From: an uncultured Chitinophagaceae bacterium
Lineage (GTDB): Bacteria; Bacteroidota; Bacteroidia; Chitinophagales; Chitinophagaceae
NCBI GenBank assembly: GCA_903884185.1
Contig: CAISDV010000172.1
Span: 1-32,643 of the forward strand
Direction: 5' to 3'
Length of the DNA: 32,643 nucleotides
The translations under genes and the position numbers were made by a program. Each line of letters opens with the position of its first letter. The first letter of the stretch is position 1. Under the pieces are notes generated by a model. The model was not told the DNA's origin and made no database searches. It saw only the letters and a program-made list of their open reading frames with translations. Of the stretch, positions 17,707 through 21,119 are shown piece after piece.

Positions 17707-18111
17707 ATGAATATTCGGAAACGTTTAAGAAAACATGCAGAAGTGCACACAGGGGCATTGAACGATATATTGTTCATTCTTCTGCTGTTCTTCCTGATCG
17801 TTTCTACACTCGCCAACCCGAATGTGATCAAGGTATCCAACCCCAAATCAAAAAGCGATACAAAGGCCAAACAGACCGTGGTGATCACGGTTGATAAGAA
17901 CCAGCAGATATACCTCGGACAAAAAGCCATTCCTTTTGAGCAGCTCGAATCTGAACTGAAAGCATTCCTTGCAAAAGAAACAGATAAACCTTCTGTAGTC
18001 ATTAACGGCGACAGTACTTCGCACCTGGGCACTGCCATTAAAGTAATGCAGGTGATCAAGAAGTTAGGCGCTACGCCTGTAATGGCGGTGGATAATAATG
18101 GAGTGAAGTAA
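17707..18111 (+). CDS. exbD: ExbD/TolR-family biopolymer transport protein
   Basis: A 134-residue partner of ExbB. It has a short basic cytoplasmic start (MNIRKRLRKHAEVHTGA), one membrane helix (residues about 19-37, LNDILFILLLFFLIVSTLA) with the conserved proton-carrying aspartate at residue 20, and a periplasmic domain (VVITVDKNQQIYLGQKAIPFEQLESEL; VVINGDSTSHLGTAIKVMQVIKKLG). The length is normal. It follows exbB on the same strand, but the gap is unusually long and repeat-filled. No tonB or second exbD is in view. Confidence 0.9.
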   Translation: MNIRKRLRKHAEVHTGALNDILFILLLFFLIVSTLANPNVIKVSNPKSKSDTKAKQTVVITVDKNQQIYLGQKAIPFEQLESELKAFLAKETDKPSVVINGDSTSHLGTAIKVMQVIKKLGATPVMAVDNNGVK

Positions 18112-18153
18112 CTCATGCCCGTCATGGCAAACCCCGCTAATGCGCTCATGTAC

Positions 18154-18230
18154 GTCATTTCGAATCCCCGATAAACTTGCTGTATCATATTTTCCGTAAA
18201 CATGATATCGGGGTGAGAAATCTTAGAGTG
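18154..18230. repeat. Left cruciform repeat (GTCATTTCGA...GAGAAATCT), inverted copy
   Basis: A 77-base unit whose outer arms ATTTC/GAAAT and CCCCGAT/ATCGGGG, and inner TATCAT/ATGATA, can fold into a long hairpin. It is the reverse complement, with divergence in the middle, of the two units at 18574-18735. A decayed relative (GTCATGGCAAACCCCGC) precedes it at 18121. Confidence 0.8.
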
Positions 18231-18278
18231 CTGTTCACTTTTACCTGCATCCCCTCTAACCAAAGAATATTCTAACCA

Positions 18279-18578
18279 ATGGAAAAAGGAGGTGCAGTCT
18301 ATATTATGACCAATAAAGTCAAAACTGTTTTCTATGTTGGTGTAACTTCTGATCTTCAAAGACGCATTCGGCAACACAAAACACATTACTATGAAAGCAA
18401 TTTCACTGCCCGATATAATATTGAATATTGTGTTTATTATGAAGAATTCACTAGGATAGAAGCAGCAATTGCAAGAGAAAAAGAAATAAAGAAGTGGAGA
18501 AGAGAGAAAAAAATATCGCTGATCAATTCAATAAACCCTGAGTGGAGAGATTTGTGGGAAGACGTAAAAAGTTGGTGA
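18279..18578 (+). CDS. GIY-YIG nuclease domain protein (YhbQ/UPF0213-like)
   Basis: A 99-residue single-domain protein. The split motif appears as AVYIMTNK near residue 6 and FYVGVTSDLQRRIRQHK near 18-34, with the catalytic arginine expected in the QRRIRQH helix. The acidic metal-ligand region is probably in EAAIAREKEIKKWRREKK near 68-85. Such stand-alone domains cleave or nick DNA, often at branched structures, but their biological role is mostly unknown. The gene lies between inverted copies of a cruciform repeat. Its TGA stop (18576-18578) falls inside the first right-hand repeat. I infer a link between enzyme and repeats. Confidence 0.85.
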   Translation: MEKGGAVYIMTNKVKTVFYVGVTSDLQRRIRQHKTHYYESNFTARYNIEYCVYYEEFTRIEAAIAREKEIKKWRREKKISLINSINPEWRDLWEDVKSW

Positions 18579-18735
18579 ATCCGTTAAGATTTCTCACCCC
18601 GATAACATGAATTGGGAAAAAATTCATGAAATGTTAATCGGGGTTCGAAATGACGGTGAATCCGTTAAGATTTCTCACCCCGATAACATGAATTGGGAAA
18701 TATTCATGTGAAGTTAATCGGGGATTCGAAATGAC
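18574..18735. repeat. Right cruciform repeats, two tandem 81-bp units
   Basis: Units 18574-18654 and 18655-18735 are both exactly 81 bases, and the first 46 bases are identical. Each has arms ATTTC and CCCCGAT pairing with ATCGGGG and GAAAT, and an inner AACATGAATT/AATTCATG stem. The array begins in the GIY-YIG stop codon and ends five bases before the fadN stop. Confidence 0.9.
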
Positions 18736-18740
18736 GATCA

Positions 18741-21119
18741 TTAATTCCTCACCGGCCTCCCACTCTTCAACACACTCTGAATTCTTTCTAAAGTTTTCTT
18801 CTCGCCACATAAGCTGAGGAATGCTTCTCTTTCAAGATCGAGTAAGTATTGTTCTGTTACTAATGAAGGTTCACTAAGATCACCACCGCACATGACGTAA
18901 GCTAATTTTCTTGCAACCAATGCGTCATGGTCGGTTGCATAATTGCCGCGCCACATACCGTTGATGCCCGCGTACAATGCGCCCAGTGCGGAACGCCCTA
19001 ATACTTTTACATCTTTGCGTTGCTGGGGAATGGAATAACCACTATCATATAATTCGATCACACTTCTTTTTGCTTCACCTGCTCTTCGGCCAATATTCAT
19101 CACCACTTCATCATGCCCCTTTCTTAAAATACCCATCGCAAAACCTTCTTGTGCTGATGTTGCCACTTTAGCAGTAGCGATGGAGAGGAAACGATTTTTT
19201 AAGGTAATCGTTTCTGGTTCATCCTCATGCATTTCATCTGCTGCGCGCAATACAAACTCTTTGGTGCCACCGCCACCCGGTATCAATCCCACACCTAACT
19301 CCACTAAACCAATATAAGTTTCAGCCGCTGCACAAATCTTATCAGCATGCAAATTCATTTCACAACCCCCACCGAGTGTTAAACCATGTGGCGCTACAAC
19401 AACAGGCACAGATGAATATCTCACTCGCATCATAGTATTCTGGAACATACGGATGGCCATATCCAGTTCATCATAATCCTGTTCTATTGCGAGCATGAAG
19501 ATCATTCCCACATTTGCTCCCGCACTAAAATTGGCGCCGTCATTTATAACTACCAGTCCTTTGAACTTTTCTTCTGCTAGGGCAATTGATTTTTGTATCC
19601 CTTCCAAAACCTCACCACCAATACTGTTCATCTTGGTGCTCCATTCTAACCCCGCCACACCATCGCCTATATCATATAAACGGCAGGCGCTGTTTTTCCA
19701 AACTATTTTATCTGTGTAATTGTTGAGAATGATAAATGCCTCTCCACCCGGCATCTCTTTGTAAGATTTTGAAGGAATATCATAATACAAACGCTTCCCA
19801 TTCTCTGTCTTATAAAAACTCTTGCACCCTGTACCCAACATATCATTTACCCATGGAGCTATCCCGTATCCCGCATCCCGCATTTGTTTAACAACAGCTT
19901 CCACCCCCAACAGATCCCATGTTTCAAAAGCGCCAATCTCCCAGCCAAAGCCGGCTTTCATAGCATCATCTACACGATACACTTCATCAGATATTTCGGG
20001 AATGCGATGTGAGATATAAGAGAACAATGAATAATGAAACAAACGATAAAATTCTCCTGCTTTATCCGTGCCAGCACTCAGCATTTTGATCCTTTGTTTC
20101 AGGTCGTCAACAGGTTTGGCTGTTTCAATCGTTGCGAACTTAGCCTTGGTGCGTGGTTCATATTCAAAACTTGTCAAGTTCAAAACACGGATATCTTTCT
20201 CTCCTTTTTGTGCGGGCATCTTTTTAAAAAAGCCCTGGCCTGTTTTATCACCCAGCCAATTATTTTCAATTAATTTATTTAACCATGCGGGAATAGTAAA
20301 AATATCTTTTGCTTCATCTGCCGGACAATTGGCCGCAACACCATTGGCAACTTTCACTAATGTATCAATACCTACCACATCTGCAGTTCGGAATGTGGCA
20401 GATTTAGGCCTTCCGATGATTGGGCCTGTGAGTGCATCCACTTCATCAATACTCAATCCCAACTTCTCCATGATATGAAAAATACTCATGATGCTGAAGA
20501 CACCGATGCGGTTGGCGATGAATGCGGGCGTGTCTTTACATAATACGGTTGTTTTACCAAGATAGAGATCACCATAATGCATTAAGAAATCAACGATCGC
20601 CGGATCGGTATCAGGAGTTGGAATAATCTCAAGTAAACGCAGATAGCGTGGCGGATTAAAAAAATGTGTTCCGCAGAAATTCTTTCTAAAGTCTTCACTT
20701 CTTCCCTGCGATAAAAGATGAATGGGAATACCCGATGTGTTGGAAGTGATCAAAGTGCCCGGTTTGCGGAACTGTTCCAGTTTTTCATAGACCAGTTGTT
20801 TGATGTCGAGCCTCTCCACCACCACTTCTATGATCCAGTCGCAGGAAGCAGTGTCTTTCATGTTATCATCAAAATTTCCAGTCGCAATTCTTTTCAGTGC
20901 ATCTTTTGTGAAGATGGGAGAAGGATTACTTTTTATAGCAGCCTGCAATGCATCATTCACCAATTTGTTTCTCTCAGCAGGTTTCTTGCTTTCTTCGGCG
21001 CCTTTGGGTACAATATCCAGTAATAACACTTCCACACCAATGCCCGCAAAATGACAGGCGATCCTTGAACCCATGACACCACTGCCCAGAACGGCAACTT
21101 TTTTAATGACTCTTTTCAT
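18741..21119 (-). CDS. fadN: FadN-type 3-hydroxyacyl-CoA dehydrogenase/enoyl-CoA hydratase
   Basis: A 792-residue bifunctional beta-oxidation enzyme with the dehydrogenase first, as in Bacillus FadN and opposite to E. coli FadB. The NAD motif VAVLGSGVMGSRIA is at residues 8-21, the catalytic histidine segment GTHFFNPPRYLRLLEIIP near 140, and a second dehydrogenase C-terminal domain follows (DAMKAGFGWEIGAFETWDLLG). The hydratase domain has the oxyanion GANFSAGANVGM near 530 and GLTLGGGCEMNLHADKI near 578, then PGGGGTKEF. The ATG at 21119 is chosen because a -7 box overlaps the longer start at 21158. Usual partners (thiolase, acyl-CoA dehydrogenase) are not adjacent. A palindromic operator sits upstream. 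Confidence 0.92.
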   Translation of the reverse strand: MKRVIKKVAVLGSGVMGSRIACHFAGIGVEVLLLDIVPKGAEESKKPAERNKLVNDALQAAIKSNPSPIFTKDALKRIATGNFDDNMKDTASCDWIIEVVVERLDIKQLVYEKLEQFRKPGTLITSNTSGIPIHLLSQGRSEDFRKNFCGTHFFNPPRYLRLLEIIPTPDTDPAIVDFLMHYGDLYLGKTTVLCKDTPAFIANRIGVFSIMSIFHIMEKLGLSIDEVDALTGPIIGRPKSATFRTADVVGIDTLVKVANGVAANCPADEAKDIFTIPAWLNKLIENNWLGDKTGQGFFKKMPAQKGEKDIRVLNLTSFEYEPRTKAKFATIETAKPVDDLKQRIKMLSAGTDKAGEFYRLFHYSLFSYISHRIPEISDEVYRVDDAMKAGFGWEIGAFETWDLLGVEAVVKQMRDAGYGIAPWVNDMLGTGCKSFYKTENGKRLYYDIPSKSYKEMPGGEAFIILNNYTDKIVWKNSACRLYDIGDGVAGLEWSTKMNSIGGEVLEGIQKSIALAEEKFKGLVVINDGANFSAGANVGMIFMLAIEQDYDELDMAIRMFQNTMMRVRYSSVPVVVAPHGLTLGGGCEMNLHADKICAAAETYIGLVELGVGLIPGGGGTKEFVLRAADEMHEDEPETITLKNRFLSIATAKVATSAQEGFAMGILRKGHDEVVMNIGRRAGEAKRSVIELYDSGYSIPQQRKDVKVLGRSALGALYAGINGMWRGNYATDHDALVARKLAYVMCGGDLSEPSLVTEQYLLDLEREAFLSLCGEKKTLERIQSVLKSGRPVRN

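Follow-up and report, generated by a model that had tools for sequence, protein, structure and literature searches.

What does a very small nuclease gene do between inverted copies of a dispersed palindromic repeat, and do gene and repeats form one unit? The question is raised by a stretch of DNA of 32,643 nt (hereafter, the window), which is contig C172 of a 2.95-Mb genome assembled in 188 contigs. From the layout of this locus, the original prediction had proposed a self-spreading or repeat-maintaining unit, parallel to REP elements and their RAYT transposases. The features involved are:

18154-18222, + strand: left CGTC-type REP core, with a GTC tag, outer stem ATTTC/GAAAT and inner stem CCCCGAT/ATCGGGG; the tag lies away from the gene
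18279-18578, + strand: GIY-YIG nuclease gene, 99 aa (PF01541, E 1.5e-15; Y8, Y19, R29, H33 and E67 conserved)
18574-18735, no strand: 81-bp tandem duplication holding both right REPs, its first copy including the end of the nuclease gene
18588-18654, - strand: right CGTC-type REP, copy 1, inverted with respect to the left REP (fold z -4.7)
18669-18735, - strand: right CGTC-type REP, copy 2, found by pattern match and folding as DNA

The predicted 99-codon gene is thus confirmed, as are, by coordinates and alignments, the single repeat on its left and the two tandem inverted copies on its right. The units of the duplication (18574-18654 and 18655-18735) are identical in 76 of 82 aligned columns, and the left repeat matches the two right copies in 63/80 and 65/81. 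All three read CGTCATTTC...GAAATC, with the CGTC tags directed outward from the gene and the tails inward. The only GTCAYNNYGA heads in the 32.6 kb are those of the three repeats at the nuclease gene, so the arrangement is not a product of chance. Against shuffles, DNA folding of the three repeats yields z = -2.1, -4.7 and -2.9, in agreement with the hairpins anticipated for them. A cruciform, as the repeats had been called, is a possible form, but in the hairpins the 5-bp outer stem is separated by an internal loop from an inner stem that varies. In the same way, the stop codon (18576-18578), which had been placed inside the right repeat, falls in the 81-bp duplication but not in the hairpin core.

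Judged by its sequence, the protein is a member of the GIY-YIG nuclease superfamily, carrying the domain (PF01541, 57.7 bits, cut-off 22.6) and the expected Tyr, Arg, His and Glu residues, which among 139 aligned rows are conserved in 139 (Y19), 135 (R29), 137 (H33) and 138 (E67). The AlphaFold model (mean pLDDT 92.4) found its best Foldseek match in the UPF0213 protein 1zg2 (E 1.1e-3), followed, with weaker E-values, by Slx1 and the nuclease domain of UvrC; a match to TIGR01453 is partial and, at 25.5 bits, below the cut-off of 56.05. Pfam reports only GIY-YIG and T5orf172, and neither an intron or intein context nor an added DNA-binding domain such as NUMOD was found by Pfam and inspection of the locus. 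As Pfam finds no further domain, any specificity would have to come from the nuclease itself or from DNA shape.

The repeats are dispersed through the source genome. The pattern GTCATTTCGA-N25-50-GAGAAATC yields 12 strict copies in 2.95 Mb against 0 for the reversed control, a multi-copy dispersal that is a trait of the CGTC-REP superfamily; both right copies of the window are among the 12, the left one exceeding its length by one base. Nine dispersed copies were checked, and all lie outside ORFs of at least 120 codons. Three dispersed copies, at C78, C171 and C176, belong to tail-to-tail REP pairs with a conserved spacer of ~24 nt, which is the repeat-gene-repeat layout minus the gene, and the REPs dispersed through the genome, singly or in pairs, are best read as non-autonomous relatives of the REP-gene-REP unit. 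For the structure, 13 copies were aligned, namely 10 of the 12 strict copies (one short and one nested copy being omitted), the left copy of the window and the partners at C78 and C176. The outer stem is invariant across them, partly because the search pattern selected for it; the inner stem, selected only for its place, shows compensatory variation. In the two stems together, 90.3% of the cells are paired, and the covariation score of 0.203 (shuffled, 0.063) was reached by 0 of 500 shuffles, the slid controls scoring at most 0.063.

Across homologous loci, 372 of 483 heads have a 3' arm that pairs exactly with their own 5-letter stem, with C/T after it, compared with a mean of 74 when stems are shuffled. 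GA precedes the 3' arm in 235 of 371 partnered units; the GA after the 5' arm is built into the head search, and the one before the 3' arm lies opposite. The general CGTC unit consists of a GTC tag and a 5-bp stem starting with AT or AC, the other stem letters depending on the type. It further has an inner hairpin, usually a CT tail and, often, GA flanking the internal loop on either side. The window copies and a Neisseria-type REP fold well as DNA; two short Bacteroidota REPs of 25-26 nt fold weakly (z -0.84 and +0.58), which we count against easy REP folding.

The association of gene and repeat was examined in loci picked by protein similarity alone, whose flanks were afterwards scored for CGTC-type hairpin units. 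In the source family, 90 of 147 genomes gave a protein match, many of them a single one, and 57 gave one at E 1e-10 or better. The first set (29 homologues plus the window's own copy, 30 loci) has a unit within 400 bp in 25 and on both sides in 18, while random DNA from ten of these genomes contains 23 units in 400 kb. A second set was taken from a public genome collection as the best 80 of 532 confirmed stretches, with a narrower alignment (A2), the alignment A1 being too diverse for a scan of the collection; 71 of these loci extend 300 bp to either side of the gene, and a unit lies within that distance in 65 of them, on both sides in 46. A third set of 34 further family loci gives 30 and 19, respectively, at the same distance. 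In a fourth, from a plasmid collection, ten of 12 loci have a unit within 300 bp, nine on both sides; these are 12 of 20 records with a match, the eight omitted being other records of the same genera, and the positives belong to alphaproteobacteria, Neisseria, Aeromonas and Planktothrix. Three pairs of loci occur in two sets (L016/L068, L029/L104, L036/L117), and were counted once in the stem-partner, two-side stem, tree, motif-free flank and residue counts.

Over the best 80 of 532 loci, the density of units falls from 5.60/kb within 300 bp of the gene (261 in 46.6 kb) to 0.177/kb more than 1.5 kb away (105 in 591.8 kb), an enrichment of about 30-fold. The 71 loci scored from these best 80 of 532 comprise 62 from Bacteroidota, 56 of them positive, and nine others under six phylum labels, all positive, although single labels may be wrong, since most are MAGs. 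Counting the Planktothrix cyanobacterium, the pairing was found in eight phyla. Mapping repeats and GIY-YIG genes in the genome and its relatives therefore gives strong enrichment beside these genes, and most homologues examined in relatives have flanking repeats in the same architecture; neither unenriched repeats nor orthologues generally devoid of them were encountered, and the self-spreading or repeat-maintaining unit proposed originally gains support.

Loci without a strict unit were also inspected by eye, and the resulting calls were not added to the strict counts. CGTC-like variants, such as GTCATTGCGAGG..GAAGCAACC, CCTCATTCCGGG and GTCCTTTCGACC, are visible in L070, L098, L142, L143, L147 and L151, in the first-set loci L027, L033, L037 and L038 and in the plasmid loci L205 and L214; L119, L170 and L044 (the last from the first set) are doubtful, and L082, L096 and L156 unconvincing. 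A motif-free comparison of the flanks found a repeat across the gene in 92 of 126 close-clade loci (30 of them best as inverted), as against 0 of 61 control pairs 1.2 kb away. At least three units of the ATTN type occur in 36 of the 57 family genomes with a close homologue and in 16 of the 90 without one. No unit of the searched ATTN pattern was found in 13 of the 57, several of which have other stem types at their own nuclease locus. On the other hand, ten family genomes hold at least five units and no close homologue (G063, G132 and G146 with 59, 43 and 27 strict units). In these ten genomes, none of 28 loci of other GIY-YIG genes has a unit nearby, and six stretches of G132, searched for an alternative partner, show only REP pairs and ORFs judged unrelated by eye. 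Such REP-rich genomes, G063, G132 and G146 among them, are exceptions to the pairing. Phage records gave no nuclease homologue at 1e-5.

Besides being adjacent, gene and repeat correspond in type. In 45 of 69 loci, the nearest units to the left and right of the gene have one and the same stem, where shuffling gives 13.8 on average and 24 at most; these nearest units are inverted in 48 loci and direct in 21. In multi-copy genomes, stems match in 12 of 16 comparisons across one locus and in 3 of 24 between different loci of one genome: those of G131 use ATTTC, ACTGC, ATGTT/ATCCT and ATTGC, and those of G093, ATTGC and ATTCT. Mapped on the protein tree, the stem types of 133 loci require 60 changes, compared with a mean of 90 and a minimum of 80 in 500 shuffles, a signal that includes a contribution from the shared descent of the genomes. 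The gene is therefore bracketed by cognate repeats whose type is matched to each paralogue, as in the REP/RAYT systems.

The same protein search returned a second, weaker group of GIY-YIG genes (L185-L204) in genomes of the source family, which serves as a comparison: 14 of its 20 loci come from genomes where a close-clade locus was examined too. CGTC units flank only 2/20 of them, at 0.17/kb, the background level, so the link with repeats belongs to one clade and not to small nuclease genes generally. In a fast protein tree, unrooted as written, the 14 single-gene rows of this sister subfamily form one clade; it gives the impression of being nearer to UPF0213. In 18 of the 20 loci the gene follows a same-strand tRNA, of one of several kinds, at a distance of 2-172 nt, and in 15 of 17 the two flanks of the gene share a direct repeat, which in most of them is, by eye, the 3' part of the tRNA. 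As these loci are repeat-flanked too, the motif-free test supports flanking by repeats and not CGTC as such. Some of the genes form tandem pairs or triples (G051, G055, G027, G103, G084, G129), and two distant GIY-YIG paralogues of the source genome, L002 and L003, both adjoin tRNA-Arg. Altogether, the sister genes look like tRNA-targeting mini-elements.

Relatives with and without the unit, whose comparison had been suggested originally, do exist; three such sites were located, to the intergenic region and not to the base. Maribellus maritimus (L115) and M. luteus (L132) share ~8.7 kb of collinear DNA, in which the unit sits between different gene pairs, at two positions 2 kb from each other, each gene-less in the other species. 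Site 1 retains degraded REP remains in the gene-less species, so gene loss is possible there; at site 2, no REP was seen at the gene-less site of the relative. The third case is a pair of Bacteroidota MAGs. L134 has two nuclease copies 58% alike, one of them orthologous to the single copy of L102 (88%); at the second, 677 bp separate flanks that are 28 bp apart in L102. Occupied and empty sites, a trait of mobile elements, are therefore present among relatives. A gene-less REP pair behaves likewise, 128 bp being present in L121 and none in L130. The inserted stretches have GTC near their start and GAC near their end; between the compared genomes, intergenic DNA has diverged too far for exact borders or target duplications to be read.

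Among 12 pairs of gene copies, homology ends near the REPs in three and at the gene ends in four. The three (L157/L158, L017/L145 upstream and L166/L173) stop 2-49 bp past the REPs. Another three share just collinear or overlapping flanks (L115/L132, L102/L134, L032/L174), and the remaining pairs, L040/L177 and L105/L114, are repeat arrays in which no clear end is seen.

Several smaller observations belong to these comparisons. By eye, the head-to-head REP pair at L121:7173-7294 that is missing in L130 lies within an apparent reading frame. The left-hand neighbour gene of the G007 copy is present in six congeners, whose stretches have no nuclease match and no ATTTC-type unit, four of them containing one strict unit each with other stems; they were rejected as an empty site, the right flank having no counterpart. 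Within G007 itself, consecutive stretches of C40:13944-14617 are 90-92% identical to DNA beside its GIY-YIG gene. An 85-bp insertion of L126 relative to L133 (5541-5626), in DNA otherwise 94% identical, was discarded as a CGTC unit; it carries unrelated TTGTACA palindromes.

Several known systems come close to this arrangement. The parallel with REP/RAYT drawn originally holds at the level of layout, a small gene with copies of a dispersed palindromic repeat on either side. RAYT paralogues have their specific repeat types, and their gene-less repeats are non-autonomous kin. RAYT (TnpA-REP) is, however, a tyrosine transposase and its REPs have a GTAG tag, whereas the window has a GIY-YIG enzyme and a CGTC tag; since both characters differ, the unit is not a REP/RAYT member. 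With GIY-YIG homing endonucleases the gene shares the catalytic domain family and a patchy distribution, but it is bounded by REPs, with no intron or intein seen and no added domain. Stand-alone GIY-YIG proteins such as UPF0213 or Slx1-like ones have the same fold and length as the window protein, and the sister subfamily differs in its background level of CGTC units and its position beside tRNA genes.

As to the repeats, CGTC REPs have been reported from five phyla, including Neisseria, Rickettsia and alphaproteobacteria, with Neisseria dRS3 and Rickettsia RPE-4 and RPE-6 among the examples; in that study, families 1-4 have a stem of 8-9 bp, a loop of 4-5 nt and mostly CCA-like tails, no gene partner is given among transposase genes, and the repeats "apparently lack a dedicated transposase", their mobilisation being left open (Di Nocera, De Gregorio and Rocco, 2013; PMC3733652). 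Those of the window share the CGTC tag, a stem starting with complementary AT, the dispersal as palindromes and the frequent pairs, and differ from families 1-4 in their units of 67-69 nt, 5-bp outer stem, internal loop, variable inner stem and CTTA tail; given these differences in stem, loop and tail, they are a variant of the CGTC type outside the four families. The Neisseria and Aeromonas loci of the plasmid set have the short REP form of the 2013 families, and the gonococcal homologue is flanked by units of the GTCATTCCCGCG type, which we take, partly from the published text, to be dRS3. Unlike the CGTC REPs as described in PMC3733652, the window repeats have a gene partner, and on sequence grounds the nuclease is a strong candidate for the missing partner that would spread CGTC REPs, palindromic repeats that are abundant in bacteria. 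In our best reading, the pair is an analogue of REP/RAYT that uses a different enzyme. No earlier paper linking GIY-YIG genes to REPs was found in the open-licence PubMed Central literature: the term "GIY" appears 0 times in PMC3733652, PMC12306157 and PMC6006769, and the passages of PMC9465073 in which a RAYT and a GIY-YIG gene are both among clade-specific genes draw no link.

With a probability of roughly 0.6, we propose that the locus is a minimal autonomous, selfish REP element (REP-GIY-YIG gene-REP): its nuclease would work on the repeats that it carries and probably spread them. Such action of the protein on them is an inference. The GIY-YIG protein would recognise REPs of its own type, in the shape of a folded strand or a cruciform, and nick at or near the REP foot; host repair or template switching at the break could then copy REPs, and sometimes REP-gene-REP, to new places, and the same repair may expand the unit into tandem arrays, such as the 81-bp duplication of the window.

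The main rival, unlikely in our view but to be taken seriously, is homing. REPs would spread by other means, and a free-standing GIY-YIG gene targeting one REP type would insert in or between them, which is why REPs would flank it. The sister subfamily, which looks like a free-standing homing element at tRNA genes (18/20 loci; direct repeat in 15/17), adds weight to this explanation, and both the paralogue-specific stems, expected of a site-specific nuclease, and the REP-rich genomes without the gene fit it. However, genomes with the gene have more REPs, Maribellus site 2 shows no REP at the gene-less site of the relative, and the homology of some copies stops 2-49 bp past the REPs, as if REP-gene-REP had moved whole.

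It is quite improbable that the nuclease is a domesticated maintenance enzyme, trimming or resolving replication-blocking REP hairpins for the host without spreading them. Slx1 and UvrC, its structural neighbours after UPF0213, are repair nucleases, and a single match in many family genomes would suit such a role; the patchy distribution (90/147 family genomes with any match, 57 with a close one), the different positions of the unit in relatives and the several paralogues, each with its own repeat type, speak against it. Very little can be said for a mere passenger, a small gene brought by chance or hitch-hiking to tolerant intergenic spots where REPs collect: the nine dispersed copies checked do lie, like the gene, outside ORFs of at least 120 codons, but the 31-fold enrichment, the 2/20 of the sister subfamily and the stem matching across the gene disfavour it. 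Repeats serving the gene as terminators or regulatory hairpins, with no role in mobility, would fit their presence on both sides, and hairpins may act in RNA, but scans of 17900-18900 gave no terminator-like site and no Rfam match, and the repeats are dispersed elsewhere in the genome, which makes this reading hardly credible.

Returning to the autonomous REP element, it can be extended to a broader and more tentative proposal, to which we would give slightly less than even odds: CGTC REPs in general may be the non-autonomous form of an unrecognised mobile element whose sole enzyme is a hairpin-reading GIY-YIG nuclease of ~100 residues, the sister subfamily acting likewise at tRNA genes. If true, the same nuclease fold would serve two tiny kinds of autonomous element, and the movement of DNA would require just a structure-specific nick and host repair. 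A repeat-spreading element with a GIY-YIG enzyme as its only protein would, to our knowledge of the open-licence literature, be the first of its kind. With a partner gene whose catalytic domain is known, the spread of CGTC REPs can be tested directly, in the tube and in the cell.

Two further observations concern neighbouring genes. Near the contig end, positions 142-982 of the window hold a short ORF, presumably resembling the start of a cytosine-5 DNA methyltransferase, and a second ORF, possibly forming a restriction pair. On the Planktothrix plasmid (L207), the GIY-YIG/REP unit is located in a defence region, between an annotated MmeI-type restriction enzyme and the DISARM gene drmA.
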